A stretch of DNA of 64,000 nt, taken from assembly GCF_914271545.1 (NCBI RefSeq), contig NZ_CAJZAH010000001.1, positions 1,488,001 to 1,552,000 of the forward strand, read 5' to 3'. The translations under genes and the position numbers were made by a program. This document shows positions 15,982-25,616 of this stretch, one piece after another (within the stretch, counting starts at the first letter, position 1; each line of letters opens with the position of its first letter). The stretch is from Cupriavidus respiraculi (lineage in GTDB: Bacteria > Pseudomonadota > Gammaproteobacteria > Burkholderiales > Burkholderiaceae). The notes beneath the pieces are model-generated. The model worked only from the letters and a program-made list of their open reading frames with translations, did not search any database and was not told where the DNA came from.

Positions 15982-17403
15982 TCAGAAAGTGATAGGCAGC
16001 CGCACGTTGACCTGCAGGTCCGGCGTATCTCGGGTGAGGCCCGCGCCCACCGACAGGTTCAGCGTATAGCGGTCGTTGAAGCGGTACGAATAGCCGACCA
16101 GCAACGTGCCCTGCGTGATGCGCACCGAGCCGGGGACGCGTTGGCCGTTCTGCTTGGTCGGCCAGATGATGGCCTGGTCGTAGCCGATGCTGAAGGAGGC
16201 CCGCTCGTTCAGCGACAGGCCCATGCCGAAGTTGAAGCCGAAGATATCGCCCGGCGCGATCTTGCCCAGCGACTCGGTCTCGCCGTTGAGCACCGTGCGG
16301 CTGACGTTGTCGCGCGAGAAGTTGTGCAGATAGCTGAAGCTGCCGAAGAACACCGCCGGATCGCTCGGCAGCAGCCACGTGATGCCGGGCTGGATCGCGT
16401 GAAAGCCCGTACCGGTCGGCAGGCCCAGCGGCAGGCCCGTGCCCGTGGTGTTGCCCACGCAGCGCTGCACGCAGTCGGTCACCACCTCGAACGGGCTCTT
16501 GCCGGTATTGGACTTGTAGCGCAGCCAGCCGACGAAGTACGGCATGCGCTCGTTGCCGTAGTTGAGCTGGTAGCGCAGCGTGGCCTCGACATCGCCCAGG
16601 CCGCTGCCGCTCGCGTCGAATACGTTGTCCACGGCGGTGCCGGTAAAGACCTCGCGGCTGATGGTCGAGCCCGAACTGCGCACGTACGGCACCTTGGCCT
16701 CGATCTCCAGGCGCTTGGTGATGCCGTAGCGCAGCGCAACGGAGGCGACATACGTCGACGTCTTGACCTCGCGCACGTCGATCAGGCCGATCAGGATGGC
16801 CGGAATGACCGAATAGCCGACCAGCGCCACGCGGTTGTTCGACGAATAGCCGTACTGGAACGCCGGCTCCACCACCAGCTTGCCCACCGGCGTCAGCACG
16901 CCAGGCTGGTCGAAGATCGGGGCGATTTCCGGTGGCCGCGTATCGGACTCGGGTGGCTTGCCCACCGGCTGCTGGGCATCGGCCTGCGCCACGGTCACGT
17001 CGCCCTGCCTTGGCGGGGGAGCGGCCTGCGCGTTCGTGGGCACGCCCGTGGTGTTTGGAATGCCCGTCATGCCGCTGGCGGCGGCAGGCGCCGTGGCCGC
17101 GCCCGTGGCGATATCGCCGCCCGTCACGCCGGTACCGGGGCCGCGCTGGCCGCCCCGCTTGTTCGACAGCACATCGACGCCCAGCACGCTGCGCAGTTCG
17201 CGGATGGTGGCCTCCTGCTCGGCCATCGAGCGCTTCATGGCCTCCAGCGCCGCGGCCTGCTGCGCGACCTCCTTCTTCAGCGCATCGAGCCGCGCCGCGG
17301 TGGGCCCGTCGTCGGGCGCTGTCTGGGCCTGCGCCAGACCCCCGAGCAATAGCAACGTCGAGCACCCCGCTTGCCGGATGCCCCGCAGTGACTTGTTCTT
17401 CAT
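15982..17403 (-). CDS. FapF-like outer-membrane secretion barrel
   Basis: This 473-residue exported protein has a signal peptide (to about residue 27, AQA-QT) and an N-terminal coiled coil (about 34-75, with ALKKEVAQQAAALEAMKRSM). A Pro/Gly/Thr-rich linker follows (about 80-165), then a beta-barrel domain of alternating polar/apolar strands ending in VRLPITF with terminal Phe. Coiled coil, linker and barrel is the architecture of FapF, the trimeric outer-membrane pore that secretes Fap amyloid subunits in Pseudomonas. Identity is inferred from architecture and from the neighbouring C39 peptidase. GGAGG precedes ATG 17403; the in-frame ATG at 17460 lacks such a site. It is the last gene of the operon. 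Confidence 0.75.
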   Translation of the reverse strand: MKNKSLRGIRQAGCSTLLLLGGLAQAQTAPDDGPTAARLDALKKEVAQQAAALEAMKRSMAEQEATIRELRSVLGVDVLSNKRGGQRGPGTGVTGGDIATGAATAPAAASGMTGIPNTTGVPTNAQAAPPPRQGDVTVAQADAQQPVGKPPESDTRPPEIAPIFDQPGVLTPVGKLVVEPAFQYGYSSNNRVALVGYSVIPAILIGLIDVREVKTSTYVASVALRYGITKRLEIEAKVPYVRSSGSTISREVFTGTAVDNVFDASGSGLGDVEATLRYQLNYGNERMPYFVGWLRYKSNTGKSPFEVVTDCVQRCVGNTTGTGLPLGLPTGTGFHAIQPGITWLLPSDPAVFFGSFSYLHNFSRDNVSRTVLNGETESLGKIAPGDIFGFNFGMGLSLNERASFSIGYDQAIIWPTKQNGQRVPGSVRITQGTLLVGYSYRFNDRYTLNLSVGAGLTRDTPDLQVNVRLPITF

Positions 17404-17569
17404 GGCGTCTTCCTCCCGGGACGGCGGACTGTTGTGCAGGAGTCCGCGACCTGCCTGCATGGCATTCGCTCCTTGCCTACCTCATCGCGTTTCCTCTCGT
17501 TTTCGGGCCGGTCTCCGCGCCGGCCTCATGCTTGCCGCATGGCTTGGTACCGCGGGCCCGCCTTCCCCC

Positions 17570-18481
17570 TCACCTCGCGCTCGCCGCCCGCAGCAGCGCG
17601 TTCTGCAGTGCCGATCCCGCGACCTGCGCGCGGAACGCCTGCAACGTGTTCACGCCCGCGTCGATGGTCAGCAGGCTCTGGATTTGCTGGTTGCTCAGCG
17701 TGTTCTGGATGACGGTGGCCGGCGAACTGGCCAGGGCGGCGGGATTGAAGCTGTTGCCCGGCCCGTTCTGGATGAGGTTCAGCAGACCGTTGGTGGCGAC
17801 CGTGCCGGTGGCGGTGGCGATCACCGATGGCGGCGGCACGGCGGCGGCCGCGGCAGTGCCGGGGCTCGGCGCGGCGGTGCTGGCGGTGCCCGGCGTGGCG
17901 GAGCCCGTGCCCGGCTGTCCGGCGCTGGCGGTCGCGCTGCCGGTGCCCGGTGTACTGCTGCCGGTGCCCGGGCTGCCGGGGTTCGACGTGGTGGTGCCGT
18001 TGCCGCCGAGCGCGGCGTTGACGGCCGCCGTGGCCGTGGCCCCGGCGTTCGCCGCGCCCTGCAGCGCCGCCGCCAGGCGGCCCGCCTGTTCGGCCGTGAT
18101 GCGGCTCACATCCGGAATCGTCAGGCTGGTCGAAACCACCAGGTTGCCGTTGACATAGACGGCGCGCTCGATGCCGAAGGACACCTGCAGGCCGGCCGCC
18201 TCGAAACCGCCGCGCAACTGCTCCAGGCGCTCCTGCGCGACCGGCGTCCAGCCCGCCATCAGCGTTCGCGATGCGCCGACTGCGATCGGCGAGGGTTGCC
18301 ACGCAGCGCTCGGCGCGGGCGCATCCGCGACATCCGCGTCCAACGCGTTGGCCGCTGGCGCGGCGCTGGCCCAGGCACTGCCGCAGCAGGCCAGCCCCAC
18401 GCCGAGCAGCATGGCTGCCGCCGGCGAGGCCGCGCCGCCGCGGCGCGCGCGCGGGGTCATGGATAAACGGTGGTGGTCCAT
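17570..18481 (-). CDS. Exported putative C39 substrate with RGG motif
   Basis: This 303-residue protein has a hydrophobic export signal (about residues 17-39). At 81-92 it carries a double-glycine-like site: V81 (-12), L86 (-7), L89 (-4), R90 and G91-G92. The next block, VSFGIERAVYVNGNLV (about 99-115), is conserved-looking. Then comes a low-complexity region of PGTGS/PGTA repeats (about 168-220) and a C-terminal part with TVIQNTLSNQQIQSLL (about 259-274). The motif is what bacteriocin-type C39 peptidases cut after, and a C39 gene lies 12 bp upstream. I infer it is processed and exported or displayed with the Gly-rich protein. Its function as subunit, nucleator or accessory is unknown. Confidence 0.75.
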   Translation of the reverse strand: MDHHRLSMTPRARRGGAASPAAAMLLGVGLACCGSAWASAAPAANALDADVADAPAPSAAWQPSPIAVGASRTLMAGWTPVAQERLEQLRGGFEAAGLQVSFGIERAVYVNGNLVVSTSLTIPDVSRITAEQAGRLAAALQGAANAGATATAAVNAALGGNGTTTSNPGSPGTGSSTPGTGSATASAGQPGTGSATPGTASTAAPSPGTAAAAAVPPPSVIATATGTVATNGLLNLIQNGPGNSFNPAALASSPATVIQNTLSNQQIQSLLTIDAGVNTLQAFRAQVAGSALQNALLRAASAR

Positions 18482-18493
18482 GATGCGGTATTC

Positions 18494-19186
18494 CTAGAAA
18501 TCTCCCACGCCGTGCTTGGGCATGACGGTGAAGAACAGACTGTCCCGGTTCACGCCCATCCAGTAGGGCCCGCTGGGCGCCACGCGCCAGTCGGCATACT
18601 GGTTGAAGCGCGCGCGGTCGGTCCGGTTGTGGATCACGAACAGCAGGTTGCTGTCCCAGATGCGCTCGAAGTGTTCGCGCGACAGTGCGCGCGTGCCCAT
18701 GGCCGGGTCTCCCACCAGAACCCGGTTGCCGCGCACCCCCTTGACCACGACGAAGTGGTGATAGCCGTTCTCGACGATCAGCACGATCGCCGGCACCTGC
18801 GTTTCCTCGAGCTTGGACAGGGGCAGCTCGTAGCCATCGGCCAGAAAGCCACGCGCTTCCAGAAAGCGCTTCATGTCCAGCAGCGAGAACCCTTCCTGCC
18901 GGATCTTGGCCTGGTTGCCCCGCAGGTACATCTCCTGGAACACTTCCTGTTCCGTGACGGGATAGCCGTACTGGTAGGTCAGCAGCGTAGCGATCGCCGC
19001 CGAGCCGCAACTGAAGTCGTACTGCTGGCGCACCGTGGTGCGAAAGCGCGCTTCCTTCAGGCTGACCGTGCGCACGCGGTATTCGCCGCCGACGCCCGGC
19101 ACGACGGCCTCGCCGGCATGTCCGGCAGGCGCGCCCAGCGACGCGCCCAGCAGCACCGCCAGCAACATCGAACCACGCACGATCAT
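18494..19186 (-). CDS. C39-type cysteine peptidase (FapD-like)
   Basis: This 230-residue protein has a Sec signal peptide (about residues 1-24, GHAGE) and a papain-fold C39 domain. The catalytic cysteine is in QYDFSCGSAAIATLL (about residue 58), the histidine in YHHFVVVKGV (about 142) and the aspartate in LVGDPAMG. C39 peptidases usually cut after GG leaders in ABC transporters; stand-alone periplasmic forms occur in Fap operons as FapD. The two neighbouring exported proteins contain GG-type sites. The start at 19186 overlaps the previous stop by 4 bp, so translation is coupled. Confidence 0.9.
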   Translation of the reverse strand: MIVRGSMLLAVLLGASLGAPAGHAGEAVVPGVGGEYRVRTVSLKEARFRTTVRQQYDFSCGSAAIATLLTYQYGYPVTEQEVFQEMYLRGNQAKIRQEGFSLLDMKRFLEARGFLADGYELPLSKLEETQVPAIVLIVENGYHHFVVVKGVRGNRVLVGDPAMGTRALSREHFERIWDSNLLFVIHNRTDRARFNQYADWRVAPSGPYWMGVNRDSLFFTVMPKHGVGDF

Positions 19187-19635
19187 GGCCGGAACTGCAC
19201 GTTGAGGATGGTCGCGTTCTGGATCAGCACGTTGGCCCCGCTGTTCTGGATCACGGTGGGCAAACCCGCGGAATTGGAGAAGGCGCCGTCGCTGATGGCG
19301 TTGGTGCCGGTGACGATGCGGTTCGCGTAGTTGTCCGCCACGGTGCCGGACAGCCGCATGTCGTTGACCACGACCTCGGCGCCGCCGCGGATATCGTCGA
19401 GACGATTGCCGTCGACGGGCTTGCCGAAAGCGGACAGCGCCGGCGCGGGCTCGTCCTGCGGCGTGGTGGAAGCCGGTACCGCCACGCCCGTGAGGGAGGG
19501 AATGCCGGTGTAGTGCGCGATCGCCGCGATCGCGGGGGTTGGCCCGTCGGGCTGCGGCTCGGCCAGGACCGACAGCCCGGGCCAAAGCAGAAATGCCATC
19601 GACAGCGTGCCGACGGCGGTACGGACCGGTCGCAT
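19183..19635 (-). CDS. Small exported GG-motif protein, relative of the Gly-rich protein
   Basis: This 150-residue protein has a signal peptide (cleavage near AEPQ, residue 25-26). A double-glycine-like site has V74 (-12), L79 (-7), I82 (-4), R83 and G84-G85. The part after GG contains RLSGTV (94-99) and ends with a QNSG...LIQNA...NVQF block (130-148). The Gly-rich protein at 19845-21284 has RLSGTV and a QNSG...LVQQA...VQANL C terminus. The two thus look like a short and a long version of one family, as amyloid minor and major subunits often are. GGAGG precedes ATG 19635. It is translationally coupled to the C39 peptidase. Confidence 0.78.
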   Translation of the reverse strand: MRPVRTAVGTLSMAFLLWPGLSVLAEPQPDGPTPAIAAIAHYTGIPSLTGVAVPASTTPQDEPAPALSAFGKPVDGNRLDDIRGGAEVVVNDMRLSGTVADNYANRIVTGTNAISDGAFSNSAGLPTVIQNSGANVLIQNATILNVQFRP

Positions 19636-19715
19636 GGTGCGCCTCCTACGAACCCTGGCGGGCGATTCCGACGGTACGCCTTGCCAGGTACGACTGGACG
19701 TCTGGGTGAACGGAC

Positions 19716-19741
19716 GCCCATCCGCGCTAGCGCGAACGGGC
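19716..19741. other. Intercistronic hairpin below the Gly-rich gene
   Basis: An imperfect 12-bp stem (two mismatches) is centred on the perfect palindrome GCGCTAGCGC, in the 209-bp gap between the Gly-rich gene and the next gene of the operon. Such a stem could slow read-through or protect the upstream message, giving more major subunit than downstream machinery. This is inference. Confidence 0.3.
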
Positions 19742-19844
19742 ATCCCGTCGTGTCAGCCCGACACGTGCATGGTGCGGCGGCGGCGGACGCCGGGTCCGTT
19801 CGCCACCGCGCATACACGCATCGCGCTTCCCGCGCGGTTTCGCC

Positions 19845-21284
19845 CTACCTGCCGACCGCCAGGTTGGCCTGCACCGTGACCGCCTGCTGCACCAGCGCGC
19901 CAAGCCCGCTGTTCTGGTTGGCGATCATGATGCCGGCTGCCGACTGGCCCACGCTGGTCATGGCGTTGGACATGTTGAAGGTGCCCGCGTCGGCCACTGC
20001 CATGCCGCCCGCGCCACCCACGCCGCCCGTCGCGCCATTGCCCACGCCACCGGTGCCGCCCGCGCCGGCGCCGCCGGCTCCGCCCGCACCGCTGGATGCG
20101 CCCACGGCGCCAGCCGCGCCATTGCCGGCGGTCGAGCTGCCGTTGGTCGCCTGGGTCGACGCATCACCATTGGTTGCCGCGCCGCCCGCGCCGCCGTTGC
20201 CCGCCACGCTGTTCTGCGTGCCGCCCGCGCCGCCGGTTCCGGTGCCGGTGCCAGCCGTCGCCGTTGCAGCGCCGCCGGTGCCCGCGCCGCCAGCGCCGCC
20301 GGTGCCGGTGCCGGTGCCAGCCGTCGCGGTGGTCGCGCCGGTGGTGCCCGTACCGCCTGCGCCGCCAGATGCCGCGGAGGTGCCGCCGGTCGGCGACGCC
20401 GCGCCGGCGGTGCCCGAGCCCGCGGCGCCATCGCCCACGCCGACGCCCACGCTCGCGCCCAGCGCGCCGCCCGAGCCCGCGGCCGCATAGCCGCCGCGGC
20501 CGCCCGTGGCCGAGCTGCCCGAGCCGCTGTCGCCACCCGTGCCGCTACCCGCCGCGCCACGCGAGCCGACGCCCAGGCTCGCACTGAGCGCATAGCCGCC
20601 ATTGCCGCGGCCATTGCCACCGTAGCCGCCCGTGCCGGAGGCCTCGCCACCATTGCCGCCGCGGCCTGCCGTGGCGCTGCCATTGGTGGCGGTACCCGCC
20701 GTTGCGCTGCCGTTGGTGGCATTGCCGCCCGCGCCGCCGTTGCCGCCCGCGCCGCCATTGCCGCTGTTGCCGCCATTGCCGCCGGTGCCGCCGGCCGCCA
20801 TGCCGCCCGTGCCATTGCCGCCATTACCACCGGTGCCGCCCGCGGCGTTGCCGGTCTGCACGGCGATATTGCCCAGGTGCGCGATCGACATGCCGCTCAC
20901 CGTGCCCGACAGGCGCGTGGTCGCGACCGCCCGGCTGGTGTTGAAGGCATTGCTGAAGTTGGCGGTGGCCGAGCCGCCGTTGGCGGCGGCGTTGCCATAG
21001 CCGCTATCCATCCGCACGCGGTTGGTGTTGTCCGCGTTGGTCTTGGTGCGCGTGCTGGTGGTGGTGCTGGAGTCGGTGTAGCTGCTGCTGTCCTGGTAAG
21101 CGCTGGAATATTCGCTGGCTTGCGGCCCGTCTCCCGTCTGCGTCGATACTGCGGTTGCGGTTTGCGTGTTGTTGCCGTCGATGCGGCGAACGTCACTGTT
21201 GGTGGTCGGATCGGCGGCCATGGCCTGGCCGCCGATGGCGCCAAGCGCCATGGCGATAGCCGACGCTAGTAAGGTCTTATTCAT
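19845..21284 (-). CDS. Gly/Ala-rich exported low-complexity protein
   Basis: This 479-residue protein starts with a clear signal peptide (cut near AMA-AD, residue 23-24). A Ser/Thr/Asn/Gln-rich region follows (30-120). RLSGTV is at 124-129. A Gly/Ala tract of about 290 residues (about 142-435) is built from GGNGG, GGAGG, GTATAGTGTG and GSGSS units, like mycobacterial PGRS regions. It ends with a QNSG...LVQQA...VQANL block (457-475). It is first in the operon and the probable main secreted subunit of a surface fibre or adhesin. The tract looks like an expansion between motifs it shares with the 150-residue protein downstream. It lacks the GG cleavage motif. GGGAG precedes ATG 21284. Confidence 0.78.
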   Translation of the reverse strand: MNKTLLASAIAMALGAIGGQAMAADPTTNSDVRRIDGNNTQTATAVSTQTGDGPQASEYSSAYQDSSSYTDSSTTTSTRTKTNADNTNRVRMDSGYGNAAANGGSATANFSNAFNTSRAVATTRLSGTVSGMSIAHLGNIAVQTGNAAGGTGGNGGNGTGGMAAGGTGGNGGNSGNGGAGGNGGAGGNATNGSATAGTATNGSATAGRGGNGGEASGTGGYGGNGRGNGGYALSASLGVGSRGAAGSGTGGDSGSGSSATGGRGGYAAAGSGGALGASVGVGVGDGAAGSGTAGAASPTGGTSAASGGAGGTGTTGATTATAGTGTGTGGAGGAGTGGAATATAGTGTGTGGAGGTQNSVAGNGGAGGAATNGDASTQATNGSSTAGNGAAGAVGASSGAGGAGGAGAGGTGGVGNGATGGVGGAGGMAVADAGTFNMSNAMTSVGQSAAGIMIANQNSGLGALVQQAVTVQANLAVGR

Positions 21285-21939
21285 ACGAAGCTCCCAGGAG
21301 AATGTCACAGCGGCTCAGCCCGGCGCCGGCGTCTGATTGGGTATCCGCCGGCAGCAGGTAGCGGTCTGGCACGCGGCCAAACCGGCATCGCCTGCGCATA
21401 ATCAGTGCCAGCGGATTTGCGCAAAGCCGCAAGTCCTTTAAATACAACGCCCGGCAAACGCGGCTGGTCCCTGGAAACGGCCAACGCAATGCCCTCAGGC
21501 GGCCCGCTGGCTGTGAACCGCATCACACATGTCACAACTCTGAGACAGCGACCGCAGTGCAACAAGGTTTGCTGCGACGCAACGCGCACGCGTCGATCCA
21601 CGGCGGTGCACAGGCTGGCCGCGGACCTTGCGGTATCCGCACGCGAGTATCGGATTTGAAACAACATCGCCTCGGTGTCCCCGCCGCCGCTCGGCCCGGC
21701 GCGCCTTGTGGGGATGTCTGTCTCCCGTCGCACATACCGCTTTGCGCTGTGTGCGCCGCAGCGTTGTGGCGCATACCAGATCCACGGTGGCGTTCGCGCG
21801 TCACACCCCGGAGGTCTCGCAAACCGGCGCCCCGCAAGGGATTCCGGCGTGTGGCCATGGCGCGACGCAACTAGGTTCTATGTCTGATTTAAAGTACATT
21901 AAGGTATTTCGGACGTGTCATCTCTCCCCAAGGGAAGCC
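21285..21939. other. 655-bp divergent regulatory region
   Basis: No conserved gene is visible between the Gly-rich operon (minus) and the GntR gene (plus). It is less GC-rich in places than its surroundings. It contains a sigma-54-type promoter sequence for the secretion operon (see 21396-21410) and an AT-rich segment near 21885-21910 just before the GntR gene. Such a long control region suits a tightly regulated surface-structure operon. Confidence 0.5.
21396..21410 (-). promoter_or_regulatory. Candidate sigma-54 (RpoN) promoter of the secretion operon
   Basis: Read on the minus strand the 15-mer is TGGCACTGATTATGC: a perfect TGGCAC -24 element, the required GG-N10-GC spacing, and TGC at -12. 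Transcription would start near 21384, leaving a leader of about 100 bases before the Gly-rich gene start at 21284. Sigma-54 promoters need an enhancer-binding activator, which is not seen here. Confidence 0.5.
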
Positions 21940-22719
21940 ATGAGTGAAGCCGTCGTTCCCCTGTATCACCAGATTTACGTGGTGCTGCGTCAACAGATCG
22001 TGGAGGGCCGCTTCGGCCAGGGCCCCCTGCCCGGTGAAATCGATCTGGCCAAGCAGTTCCACGCGTCGCGCGTGACGATGCGGCGCGTGTTCGACCGCCT
22101 GGTTCAGGAGGGACTGGTGCGCAGGCACCGCGGCCTGGGCACGTTCGTCAATCCGCATCCGGTCAAGCCCGCCCAGGTGGAGGATCGCCCCTCGAGCCTG
22201 CTCGACAACCTGATCGACATGGGCGAGAAGACCGCCGCCAAGCTGATCGCGATGGACGAGGTGCAGGCCACCCCGGAGGTCGCGCAGGCGCTCGCGCTGC
22301 AACCCGGCGACCCGGTGGTCAAGGTCGTGCGCGTGCGGCACTACCAGGGCCGCCCGCTCTCCCATATCACCGTCTACCTGCCCGCCGACGTGGGCCGCCT
22401 GCTGACCAGCGAGCGCCTGGAGACGGCGCCCATGCTGCGGTTGCTCGAAGCCGGGGGGGTCCAGCTGGGGCGCGCCACGCAGGTGGTGTCCGCGCGCCTG
22501 GCCGACGTGGTGGTGGCCCCGCTGCTGGAGGTGCCGGTCGGCGCGGCGCTGCTGGCGGTGCGCCGGGTCGTGAAGGACAAGTCGGGGCGGCCGGTCCAGT
22601 TTCTTCTGGGCCAATACCGTCCCGACCGCTATGAATACCGTATGGAACTGTCGCCCGCGGGCGGCGACAGCGCCAACGTATGGGTGGAAAACGGCGTCCG
22701 CTCGGGACTGCGCGATTGA
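21940..22719 (+). CDS. GntR/UTRA-family transcriptional regulator
   Basis: This 259-residue HutC-type GntR regulator has an N-terminal winged helix (about residues 5-70, EIDLAKQFHASRVTMRRVFDRLVQEGLV) and a UTRA effector domain (about 90-245, chorismate-lyase-like fold) that binds a small ligand. It lies 61 bp upstream of a Bug receptor and LeuC/LeuD-like subunits in the same direction and probably controls them. AAGGGA precedes ATG 21940; an in-frame ATG at 21880 would add 20 residues and is less likely. Confidence 0.88.
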   Translation: MSEAVVPLYHQIYVVLRQQIVEGRFGQGPLPGEIDLAKQFHASRVTMRRVFDRLVQEGLVRRHRGLGTFVNPHPVKPAQVEDRPSSLLDNLIDMGEKTAAKLIAMDEVQATPEVAQALALQPGDPVVKVVRVRHYQGRPLSHITVYLPADVGRLLTSERLETAPMLRLLEAGGVQLGRATQVVSARLADVVVAPLLEVPVGAALLAVRRVVKDKSGRPVQFLLGQYRPDRYEYRMELSPAGGDSANVWVENGVRSGLRD

Positions 22720-22780
22720 GCGATCGCGCGAATCCGCAGCCGAGGGCGAACCCGATAACGATTCGATGGAGACCATGCCC

Positions 22781-23797
22781 ATGTCGCTTGACACAGTTGC
22801 CAAGACCCGCCTGTCCGGCCGCCAGCGTCGGCGCGCCACCGCCACGCTGACCATTCCGCTGCTCGCCGCGCTGCTCGCCCTGCCGGGCATGGTCCGCGCC
22901 GAGATAGCCGGCGGCAAACCGATCCGCCTGCTGGTGGGCGCCCCGCCGGGGGGCACCACCGATACGCTGGCGCGCGCGCTCGGGCAGGAAATGGCCAAGG
23001 TGCTGAACCAGACCGTGGTGGTGGAGAACCGCCCCGGCGCGGGCGGCAATATCGCCGCCGACATGGTGGCCAAGGCCGCCCCGGACGGCAGCACGCTGCT
23101 GATGAGTTTCACCAGCCACACCATCAACGCCTCGCTGTACAAGAAGCTGCCGTTCGACCCGGTGGCCGACTTCACGCCCATTACGCTGGTGGCGACGGTG
23201 CCCAGCGTGCTGGTGGCCGCGCCGAGCCTGCCCGCCTCCGATATCCCGCAGCTGATCAAGCTGGCCAAGGCCCAGCCCGGCAAGCTGAACTTCGGCATCG
23301 GTTCGGTGGGCTCGTCGCTGCATATGGCCGGCGACATGTTCAAGATGATGACGGGCACCTATATCGTCAACATTCCCTACAAGGGCACAAACCCCGCGCT
23401 GACGGACCTGCTGGCCGGCCAGGTCGACCTGATGTTCGCCAGCACGATCAACGTGCTGCCGCACGTGAAGGCCGGCAAGCTGAAGGTGCTCGGCGTGACC
23501 AGCCCCGCGCCGCTGCCGCAGTTTCCGGGCGCGGCGCCGATCGGCGCGACGGTCAAGGGCTTCGAGTCCAATGCATGGTTCGGCCTCTTCGGCCCGGCCG
23601 GCATGCCGGCCGAGGTCACGCAGGCGCTGTACCAGGCCGCGCGCAAGAGCCTGGACAACCCGAACGTGACCAAGCGGCTGGAGGCGGACGGCGCCCAGCC
23701 GGTCGGCAATTCGCCCGAGACCTTCGGCGCGTTCGTGCGCCAGGACATCAAGCGCTGGGCCACCGTAGTCAAGTACTCGGGAGCCACCGTCGAATGA
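22781..23797 (+). CDS. Bug-type (TTT) periplasmic solute-binding receptor
   Basis: This orphan Bug/TctC receptor of about 338 residues has a rather long leader (hydrophobic core at about 22-37, cut near VRA-EI). The mature N terminus contains GKPIRLLVGAPPGGTTDTLARALG, and family motifs AAPDGSTLL and IPYKGTNPALTDLLAGQVD follow. It sits between a GntR regulator and LeuC-like and LeuD-like genes. Its stop overlaps the next start by 4 bp, so the imported compound is likely the substrate, or a precursor of the substrate, of that hydro-lyase. Starts at 22766 and 22775 are also in frame; 22781 has GGAG at the best distance. Confidence 0.9.
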   Translation: MSLDTVAKTRLSGRQRRRATATLTIPLLAALLALPGMVRAEIAGGKPIRLLVGAPPGGTTDTLARALGQEMAKVLNQTVVVENRPGAGGNIAADMVAKAAPDGSTLLMSFTSHTINASLYKKLPFDPVADFTPITLVATVPSVLVAAPSLPASDIPQLIKLAKAQPGKLNFGIGSVGSSLHMAGDMFKMMTGTYIVNIPYKGTNPALTDLLAGQVDLMFASTINVLPHVKAGKLKVLGVTSPAPLPQFPGAAPIGATVKGFESNAWFGLFGPAGMPAEVTQALYQAARKSLDNPNVTKRLEADGAQPVGNSPETFGAFVRQDIKRWATVVKYSGATVE

Positions 23798-25095
23798 CGT
23801 CCCCCGGCCACCCCGCCCCCGCCACGCTCGCGCAGAAGCTGGTGGCCCGCGCGGCCGGCATGGAGGCGGTCGTGCCGGGCACCGTGGTGACCTGCCGCGT
23901 AGACCTTGCCATGTCGCACGATTCCAGCGGGCCGCGCCGCGTGGCGCCCCTGCTGCGCGAACTCGGCGCCAAGGTGTGGGATCCCGAGCGCTACGTCATC
24001 GTGACCGATCACTTCGTGCCGGCCGCCGATCCGGAAGCCGAAACCATCGTGCGCTTTGCCCGCGACTGGGCGCGCGATGCCGGCCTGCGCCATGTCATCG
24101 ACGGCGAGGGCATCTGCCACGTGGTGCTGCCCGAACGCGGCCACGTGCTGCCGGGCCGCTTCATCGTCGGCGGCGACAGCCACAGCCCCACCGGCGGCGC
24201 CTTCGGCGCCTACATGTTCGGCATCGGCGCCACCGAGATGGCGGGCGTGCTGGCCACCGGCGAAATCTGGCTGCGCGTGCCCCACACCATCCGGCTGCAC
24301 TGGAACGGGCGCCTGGCCGACGGCGTGTGCGCCAAGGACATGATGCTGTTCCTGTGCGCGCGCCTGGGCATGGGCGGCGGCCGCTACGAGGCCGTCGAGT
24401 TCAGCGGCGACGCGGTGACCGCGCTGCCGATGCAGGAGCGCATGACGCTGACCAACATGACGGCGGAACTGGGGGCGCAGACCGGCCTGATTGCTCCCGA
24501 CGACACCACGCTGCGGTGGCTGGCCGACACCGGCGTCGCTCCGCAAACGCTCGCGGCCATCGACGTGGCGCACTGGCGCACCGATGCCGGGGCGGCGGTG
24601 CTGGAGGACCATCGCTTCGACGCCGCGACGCTGCCGCCGCAGGTGGCCGCGCCGCACTCTCCGGCCAACAGCGCGCCGGTGGAGCAGGCGGCCGGCGAAG
24701 TCATCGACATCGCCTATCTTGGCGCCTGCACTGGCGCCAAGCTCGAGGACATGCGCATGGCCGCGCGCGTGCTGCGCGGGCGGCGCATCGCGTCGGGCGT
24801 CACGCTGCAGGTCGCCCCCGCTTCCTTGCGCGACCAGCAGCAGGCCGAACGCGAAGGCACGCTGGCGGCGCTGCGGGATGCCGGGGCCCAGTTGCTGCCC
24901 AATGCCTGCAACGCCTGCGCGGGCTACGGCCCCACCCGCTTTGGCGCCAGCGCGCGGGCCATTGCCTCCACCGCCCGCAACTTCCCGGGGCGCATGGGCG
25001 ATGCCGGCAGCGCGGTCTGGCTGGGCTCGCCGCTGACGGTGGCGGCCTCCGCGGTGGCCGGCCGCATCACCGATCCGCGCACCATGCTGTCATGA
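23794..25095 (+). CDS. LeuC/aconitase-type hydro-lyase large subunit
   Basis: This 433-residue protein resembles 3-isopropylmalate dehydratase and homoaconitase large subunits. It has the N-terminal LAQKLVARAAG, the DHFVPAAD loop, the conserved GDSHSPTGGAFGAYMFGIGATEM block and [4Fe-4S] ligand cysteines (YLGACTGAKLEDM and the later NACNACAGYGPTRFG). The family isomerises or hydrates hydroxy-acids in the cytosol. The context (GntR, Bug receptor) points to catabolism of an imported carboxylate rather than leucine synthesis. Substrate unknown. The start overlaps the receptor stop by 4 bp. Confidence 0.88.
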   Translation: MTSPGHPAPATLAQKLVARAAGMEAVVPGTVVTCRVDLAMSHDSSGPRRVAPLLRELGAKVWDPERYVIVTDHFVPAADPEAETIVRFARDWARDAGLRHVIDGEGICHVVLPERGHVLPGRFIVGGDSHSPTGGAFGAYMFGIGATEMAGVLATGEIWLRVPHTIRLHWNGRLADGVCAKDMMLFLCARLGMGGGRYEAVEFSGDAVTALPMQERMTLTNMTAELGAQTGLIAPDDTTLRWLADTGVAPQTLAAIDVAHWRTDAGAAVLEDHRFDAATLPPQVAAPHSPANSAPVEQAAGEVIDIAYLGACTGAKLEDMRMAARVLRGRRIASGVTLQVAPASLRDQQQAEREGTLAALRDAGAQLLPNACNACAGYGPTRFGASARAIASTARNFPGRMGDAGSAVWLGSPLTVAASAVAGRITDPRTMLS

Positions 25096-25616
25096 GCCAG
25101 ATGTCCCCTCTCCGCGCCGTTACCGCCTCCGCCACCGGACGCATCTGGCGCTTCGGCGACAACGTCGACACCGACGCCATGGCGCCCGGCACCTACATGA
25201 AGCTGGGGATCGAAGAGATTGCGCGCCACTGCCTCGAAAACCTGCGGCCGGAATTCCCGGCGCAGGTGCGCGCGGGCGACCTGCTGGTAGCCGGCGAGAA
25301 CTTCGGCGTGGGCTCGTCCCGCGAGCAGGCGCCGCAGGCACTGCGGCAACTGGGCATCGCCGCGATCGTCGCGCCCTCGTTCGCCGGACTGTTCTACCGC
25401 AATGCGCTGAACCTGGGGCTGCCGGCGCTGGTTTGCCGGGACACCGCCGCGCTCGCGGACGGCGCCGAGGCCACCCTGGACCTGAACGCCGCCACGGTGG
25501 TGCTGGGCGATGGCCGCCGCATTGCGTGCGAACCGATTCCCGGCTTCCTGCTGGCGATGCTGCGCGCGGGCGGATTGATTCCGCATCTGAAGGCGCGGCT
25601 GGGCGCGGGCGTCTAG
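25092..25616 (+). CDS. LeuD-type hydro-lyase small subunit
   Basis: This 174-residue swivel-domain subunit partners the preceding large subunit, with an ATGA overlap. Family signatures are WRFGDNVDTDAMAPGTYM at the start and GENFGVGSSREQAPQAL (residues about 62-78), which binds substrate, followed by VAPSFAGLFYRNALNLGL. Together the two make a heterodimeric aconitase-like enzyme. Assignment to isopropylmalate, citraconate or another substrate cannot be made from sequence alone. Confidence 0.9.
   Translation: MSQMSPLRAVTASATGRIWRFGDNVDTDAMAPGTYMKLGIEEIARHCLENLRPEFPAQVRAGDLLVAGENFGVGSSREQAPQALRQLGIAAIVAPSFAGLFYRNALNLGLPALVCRDTAALADGAEATLDLNAATVVLGDGRRIACEPIPGFLLAMLRAGGLIPHLKARLGAGV

Follow-up and report, generated by a model that had tools for sequence, protein, structure and literature searches.

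Five genes on the minus strand of Cupriavidus respiraculi DNA, called here g1 to g5, appear to encode an outer-membrane secretion system of the FapD/E/F kind that is complete in itself and brings its own cargo, a reading to which we give a probability of roughly 70%. They occupy positions 15982-21284 of a stretch of 64,000 nucleotides, the window (GCF_914271545.1, NZ_CAJZAH010000001.1, 1,488,001-1,552,000 of the forward strand), and all five open reading frames were confirmed. Comparisons of sequence give good support to the view that the genes represent a distinct branch of Fap-type secretion. By analogy, the system is likely to form fibres, and its surface product may be a cross-beta amyloid, some other glycine-rich fibre or a surface coat.

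A FapD-like peptidase and a FapF-like barrel

The peptidase, g3, matches the C39 family of Pfam (PF03412, E = 4.9e-25) and, among the models of NCBIfam, FapD (NF058616, E = 4.6e-41, 140 bits, where the curated cut-off is 330) and FilB (E = 1.7e-39, 136 bits, cut-off 475). Cys60, His144 and Asp160, which we take to be its catalytic residues, are invariant in the nine sequences aligned. The barrel, g5, begins with a heptad-like stretch, judged by eye to be a coiled coil, followed by a low-complexity linker. It matches the FapF model (E = 5.1e-39, 134 bits, cut-off 700) and more distantly that of FilC (E = 1.2e-11, 45 bits, cut-off 630), and its residues 154-472 match the FapF that has been crystallised (E = 7.9e-27). 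The original prediction, made from the letters of the sequence, had described five minus-strand genes that included a C39 peptidase and a FapF-like barrel, and the reading frames and family matches bear this out; in particular, the barrel is related to FapF, by model and by solved structure, and did not turn out to belong to an unrelated family. Models for FapD and FapF have been called poorly specific (PMC3792158), and co-located fapD and fapF homologues have been noted in five further phyla (PMC6173800).

More can be said from phylogenetic trees, in both of which the labels Fap, Fil-like and cousin are ours, from gene neighbourhood and score. In the tree of FapF-related barrels (53 rows), the 20 barrels of the window type join with eight from gamma-proteobacterial cousins in one group (support 99/99), the 18 Fap rows form another (98/90), and seven Fil-like rows make up a third, far branch (100/100), although the program warned of long branches, that leading to the Fil-like rows included. 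In the tree of C39 peptidases (63 rows, unrooted, with one very long row), the window type is one group (89/90), as is the window type together with the cousins (82/79); a further division puts the window-type, cousin and Fil-like peptidases on one side and the Fap rows on the other (89/99). Both trees set the window-type system apart from Fap, the first with good support and the second with less, in keeping with the distinct Fap-like branch that had been suggested.

A separate fap-like operon in the same genome

The genome possesses another set of genes that resembles fapABCDEF, at C1:1581697-1586624 (L029:5698-10625), about 72 kb from the window operon and about 30 kb past the end of the window. 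Its six proteins match the NCBIfam models in order, with scores under the curated cut-off in every case: FapA (E = 3e-5), FapB (8.1e-20), FapC (2.7e-22), FapD (5.8e-60, 202 bits), FapE (5.4e-15) and FapF (3.9e-109, 365 bits). With this set as a positive control for the models, g1 to g5 gave matches only to FapD and FapF, weaker than those of the fap-like set, and none to FapA, FapB, FapC or FapE. Since the separate set matches all six models, the window operon is not the Fap operon of its genome. A FapD/FapF pair of the fap-like kind is found in 3 of 24 genomes of the genus.

The absence of a FapA-like chaperone, part of the original prediction, agrees with the lack of any match to the FapA model in the five proteins, a sixth gene not having been systematically searched for. 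Many true Fap systems also lack FapA (PMC3792158).

Conservation and order of the genes

A scan of genomes with the C39 alignment gave 314 relatives that encode the peptidase, and the best 80 loci were used, searched for all five genes with hidden Markov models built from members of the same family. The full set was present in 75 of the 80; in the remaining five, the C39 gene lies near the end of a short contig. All 75 complete loci have g1-g2-g3-g4 in that order on one strand. The position of g5 is freer: it comes after g4 on the same strand in 53, whereas in 7 it lies behind g4 but convergent to it, and in 15 it is placed ahead of g1 and divergent. Within the genus, g5 is present in 22 of 24 genomes, that of C. 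respiraculi included (the two without it are 54% and 97% complete), with a best match per other genome of 77-87% identity apart from a single case of 70%, and all 22 operon loci examined in the genus hold the five genes in the same order. Given the presence of g5 in 22 of 24 genomes and the retention of five genes in 75 of 80 loci, the set is kept together far beyond chance; a lack of joint conservation in other genomes, which would have refuted the original prediction, is not what is seen.

The hosts include Cupriavidus, Paraburkholderia, Pararobbsia, Pandoraea, Polaromonas, Variovorax, Rhodoferax, Massilia, Noviherbaspirillum, Lysobacter, Luteimonas and Pseudoxanthomonas. Six Paraburkholderia loci have g1 in duplicate, and in C. 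metallidurans CH34 all five genes lie on the second replicon, of 2.58 Mb. In a phylum spread of 398 genomes, 86 had some C39 match, and seven of those 86, the genome studied and others of its genus counted in, exceeded 300 bits against the window-type C39 profile. One genome with a full operon also carries, at L031:8606-10075, a solitary second paralogue of g5 that is 67% identical to g5 of the window.

Nine cousin loci were found in gamma-proteobacteria (L140-L148), one of which (L148) has only fragments of the C39 and barrel genes. A g4-like protein is encoded in 8 of the 9 and a g2-like protein in 6. In place of Gly/Ala, the g1-like proteins of these loci abound in Asn/Asp/Ser/Thr or Gly/Asn. 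In L147 the g1-g2-g3-g4 cassette is present as a tandem duplicate with one barrel gene.

Leader patterns in g2 and g4

The motif LxxxRGG is present in 87 of 89 distinct g2 orthologues and in 91 of 91 distinct g4 orthologues (twice in three of them) but in 1 of 83 g1 proteins. Some of the genomes behind L030 and L032-L057 are represented again among loci L058-L089, and identical proteins were counted once; the g1 of L046, shortened by the choice of start, was omitted from the first g1 set. In both g2 and g4, what follows the motif is well conserved and what precedes it is poorly so, bar a few positions: those conserved at 70% or more upstream of the motif Leu are only Met1 and Val74 in g2 and only Met1, Ala31, Trp78 and Val81 in g4.

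Bacteriocins with double-glycine leaders, which are cut by C39 peptidases, display the same pattern. Counting back from the predicted cut, g2 (89 proteins) has a hydrophobic residue at -4 in 82%, Leu at -7 in 100%, a hydrophobic residue at -12 in 98% and Gly at -1 in 98%, and the figures for g4 (91 proteins) are 82%, 100%, 90% and 100%. Both proteins thus appear to carry double-glycine leaders as these are defined (hydrophobic at -4, -7 and -12, GG at -2/-1). On account of this pattern, the motifs are predicted to be the sites at which g3 cuts, and processing of g2 and g4 by the C39 peptidase is strongly predicted. The g4 orthologues of L040, L067, L068, L071 and L048 have a leader segment ending in LxxLRGGF two to three times per precursor, a layout that might permit more than one cut.

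A similar pattern can be discerned in FapE. Of FapE proteins chosen by gene position alone, 23 of 24 contain L/M-xxx-[RT]G[KR][YF], that of L154 being without it. In a set of 22 chosen by gene position and motif, in which R at -3, G at -2, K/R at -1 and Y/F at +1 are therefore present by construction, the residue at -4 is hydrophobic in 73% and that at -12 in 100%, and Glu occupies -8 in 91%. FapD has been shown to be an active periplasmic peptidase, its target left open with FapE suspected, and the first 70 or so residues of FapE yielded no peptides (PMC5557850); two reports state that the substrate of FapD is unknown (PMC5557850; PMC6173800). From the alignment with the leader pattern of g2 and g4, we infer that one residue of FapE is the prime candidate for the cut by FapD.

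Kinship of the cargo proteins

No match was found for g1, g2 or g4 in Pfam or NCBIfam at E <= 10, curlin repeats of Pfam included, nor to any PHROGs family at E <= 0.01. Alignments were therefore compared profile to profile with hhalign, each result judged against controls in which columns had been shuffled. With trimmed sets, in which FapE had been chosen by gene position and motif, g4 matched FapE at 86.9% (E = 4.1e-6), a score that none of 60 shuffles reached. With cousins added the value was 90.2% (E = 1.5e-6; 0 of 60). The match holds when the motif plays no part in the choice: for untrimmed proteins, with gene position as the sole criterion for FapE, it was 91.3% (E = 9.6e-7; 0 of 40). 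By the same means, g2 matched the C-terminus of g1 at 70.6% (0 of 60), rising with cousins to 95.6% (E = 1.1e-8; 0 of 60), and the C-terminus of g4 matched g2 at 85.9% (0 of 50). On the strength of these profile comparisons, g4 is probably a remote homologue of FapE, and g1 has a terminal module in common with g2. A weak resemblance of g2 to the repeat-like part of FapE (44.4%; 0 of 40) was also seen.

The main subunit had been supposed to be a Gly/Ala-rich, PGRS-like protein in place of FapC. In agreement, g1 is rich in Gly and Ala and matches neither the FapC model nor the Fap repeats. The likeness to PGRS is one of composition only: kinship of g1 with the mycobacterial PGRS proteins was considered and rejected, since neither Pfam nor the solved structures gave a match. 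To the original prediction we add the remote FapE, the two leaders and the second, fap-like operon.

Upstream region

A pattern typical of sigma-54 promoters, TGGCAY-N7-GC (N8 with A/T also allowed), precedes g1. Because it was defined after the Cupriavidus alignment had been viewed, the 41 upstream regions from other families provide the independent test: 30 have the pattern and 11 do not, with a rate in shuffled sequence of 0.39%. The Cupriavidus group has it in 30 of 30 regions (0.67% when shuffled). Upstream of g2, g4 or g5, it occurs in at most one region per group. A first control used dinucleotide shuffling, at times plain; in the final control, shuffling was plain throughout.

About 137 bases farther upstream lies an inverted repeat that may be an activator-binding site. 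TGTCACA-N4-TGTGACA is exact in 28 of the 30 Cupriavidus-group regions, the remaining two departing from it by one or two changes, but in only 2 of the 41 regions from other families. In the genome of C. respiraculi the repeat is found at two places with at most one mismatch, the other place (one mismatch) being among ribosomal protein genes. Between 15600 and 22000, no sigma-70 promoter was found, and intrinsic terminators numbered two against 3.5 expected; nothing in the window reached the gathering score of Rfam.

In P. fluorescens, Fap is activated by an enhancer-binding protein that senses cyclic diguanosine monophosphate (c-di-GMP) (PMC13101488), and in Burkholderia RpoN acts together with BerB to control a biofilm regulator (PMC5552954). 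A link of the window operon to c-di-GMP is only an analogy. The fap-like operon of the same genome is also preceded by what may be a sigma-54-like site and is adjoined by a gene (L029:3986-5671) that reads by eye as a sigma-54 enhancer-binding regulator.

Table 1. Genes, parts of genes and upstream elements, in window coordinates
Feature	Position	Strand	Basis
g1, exported Gly/Ala-rich protein, 479 aa, presumed major subunit	19845..21284	-	open reading frame; ends conserved, centre low-complexity
Gly-rich centre of g1 (residues 126-446)	19947..20909	-	39% Gly, 37 GGX units
C-terminal module of g1, common to g2 (about residues 430-479)	19848..19997	-	hhalign
g2, exported precursor, 150 aa, presumed minor subunit or nucleator	19183..19635	-	open reading frame; order conserved
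Predicted C39 cleavage site in g2, LDDIRGG (residues 79-85)	19381..19401	-	orthologue motif, leader profile
g3, exported C39 cysteine peptidase, FapD/FilB-like, 230 aa	18494..19186	-	Pfam, NCBIfam, alignment
g4, exported protein, probable remote FapE homologue, 303 aa	17570..18481	-	hhalign to FapE
Predicted C39 cleavage site in g4, LEQLRGG (residues 86-92)	18206..18226	-	orthologue motif, leader profile
g5, FapF-type outer-membrane barrel, 473 aa, N-terminal coiled-coil-like stretch and linker	15982..17403	-	profiles, tree
Sigma-54-type promoter upstream of g1, TGGCACTGATTATGCG	21395..21410	-	TGGCAY-N7-GC
Inverted repeat TGTCTCA-N4-TGTGACA, possible activator-binding site	21530..21547	-	predicted from conservation

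Discussion

A mechanism can be proposed for the system. A sigma-54 promoter, perhaps aided by an upstream activator site, would switch the operon on, if the upstream sequences are read aright. All five proteins would cross into the periplasm via Sec, to judge from signal peptides assigned by eye, and there the exported peptidase g3 would cut the pro-regions off g2 and g4 at LxxxRGG, a step predicted because of the leader pattern together with the break in conservation. Trimmed g2 and g4, along with uncut g1, might then exit through the g5 barrel, as FapF would lead one to expect. At the surface, g2 may seed or cap polymers of the Gly-rich g1 through their common module, while g4 may act as FapE does.

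Several observations weigh against this reading. The alignment of g4 with FapE covers no more than 27-32 columns, all of them about the leader site, and the C-terminal parts of the two match weakly (14.1%; 0 of 50 shuffles as high), as does the C-terminus of g4 with g1 (1.2%; 0 of 50). The predicted site of g2 ends in GR instead of GG in 3 of 6 cousin loci, and two g2 proteins of the window type carry RGR or RGA. The structural model of mature g2 is of low confidence (predicted local distance difference test score, pLDDT, of 68), too uncertain for use in a fold search, with two strands at 42-47 and 50-55. To the Fap repeats g2 gives a weak match (15.7%; 0 of 60) that becomes worse with cousins (3.8%; 2 of 60), so g2 was rejected as a proven Fap repeat; a repeat of that type in g2 is possible. 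The match of g1 to the Fap repeats is at the level of chance (0.5%), with 25 of 60 shuffles as high and 24 of 60 when cousins are added, and g1 was accordingly rejected as a homologue of FapC. Without such a match, an amyloid nature is not something that g1 can inherit by homology.

The last result bears on an alternative, that the genes are a diverged Fap amyloid operon, with g1 as FapC and g2 as FapB, and make Fap fibrils. The window set does have counterparts of FapD, FapE and FapF, and g2 is weakly similar to the Fap repeat and to the repeat-like part of FapE. We nonetheless regard it as unlikely, for the genome has another set with matches to all six Fap models, no FapB or FapC match was found for g1 or g2, g1 is unlike the Fap repeats, and the branch to which g5 belongs is separate with support. 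The secretion system proposed here has in common with Fap (fapABCDEF of Pseudomonas and relatives) the C39 peptidase, the FapF-type barrel and a remote FapE with the same leader pattern. It differs in having no match to FapA, FapB or FapC and a Gly-rich g1 with no detectable Fap repeats, in a predicted site that ends in GG rather than the GK/GR of FapE, and in its own branch of the FapF tree.

Perhaps, instead, the system exports small double-glycine peptides, like bacteriocins or the Nap peptides, with the Gly-rich protein a mere carrier or coat. Mature g2 would be just 65 residues long behind its leader, and the nap island of Neisseria does join a C39 peptidase (NapP) and a FapF homologue (NapF) with double-glycine substrates (NapA-C; PMC11798529). 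The substrates there are small, cationic and promote autolysis, and no Gly-rich major protein is seen in the available text of that report. The C-terminal module of g2, however, is common to g1 and g4, which suggests co-assembly over release, and we consider peptide export quite unlikely. The C39 peptidases of ABC exporters resemble g3 in fold, by sequence, and in the leader pattern, but g3 stands alone and is exported, and the leaders of g2 and g4 lie behind Sec signals.

A Fil-type putative pilus system is very improbable, for although g3 scores nearly as well on FilB as on FapD and the C39 tree puts Fil-like, cousin and window-type peptidases on one side, g5 is far weaker on FilC than on FapF, Fil-like barrels are far removed in the tree, and the Fil-like loci examined have different neighbours. 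The Fil system (FilA-F of Acinetobacter) and the Fil-like gamma-proteobacterial loci, a label given here from gene neighbourhood, share with the window type the C39 peptidase and a FapF-related barrel and differ in their partner genes; the FilA, FilD and FilE neighbours of Fil are not those of the window set. Loci of this kind with both peptidase and barrel are L150, L153 and L174 (also L151, L152, L157, L170 and L171). Read by eye, 5 of 6 FilA-like proteins in front of the peptidase carry what looks like a leader with GQ at its end, and L150 and L153 each have two large LuxR/MalT-like regulators upstream.

Taken jointly, these systems may be open to a broader reading, which we offer as tentative and somewhat short of an even chance. 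FapD-family peptidases would be a class of exported leader peptidases with a single recognition pattern (hydrophobic at -12, Leu at -7, hydrophobic at -4, Gly at -2) and a last residue specific to the branch: GG in the window type, GK/GR in Fap and, in Fil, GQ. Export via FapF-type barrels would be licensed once FapE- and FapB-like partners had been cut. By this hypothesis, the machinery was recruited here for a Gly-rich fibre that is not Fap, and the chemistry of the fibre centre shifts by lineage, from GGX in the window type to Asn/Asp/Ser/Thr-rich or Gly/Asn-rich in the cousins, while the terminal module stays recognisable.

In the branch to which the window operon belongs, the double-glycine leader is plain to see in two proteins, which offers a candidate answer to the question of what FapD-type peptidases cut, and the branch suggests that FapD/FapF machinery may export cargo of widely different chemistry. 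It also brings to light a gene set that many environmental Burkholderiales and Lysobacteraceae have conserved; three of the proteins in this set, the cargo, have no family match within the limits given above. No description of the set was recognised in the literature searched, most subscription journals lying outside its coverage.

Other features of the locus

Within the operon, g2 and g3 overlap by four bases (ATGA). Adjoining it, at 21628-25616 of the window, are genes that read by eye as a GntR-type regulator, a Bug-type solute receptor and aconitase-type subunits.

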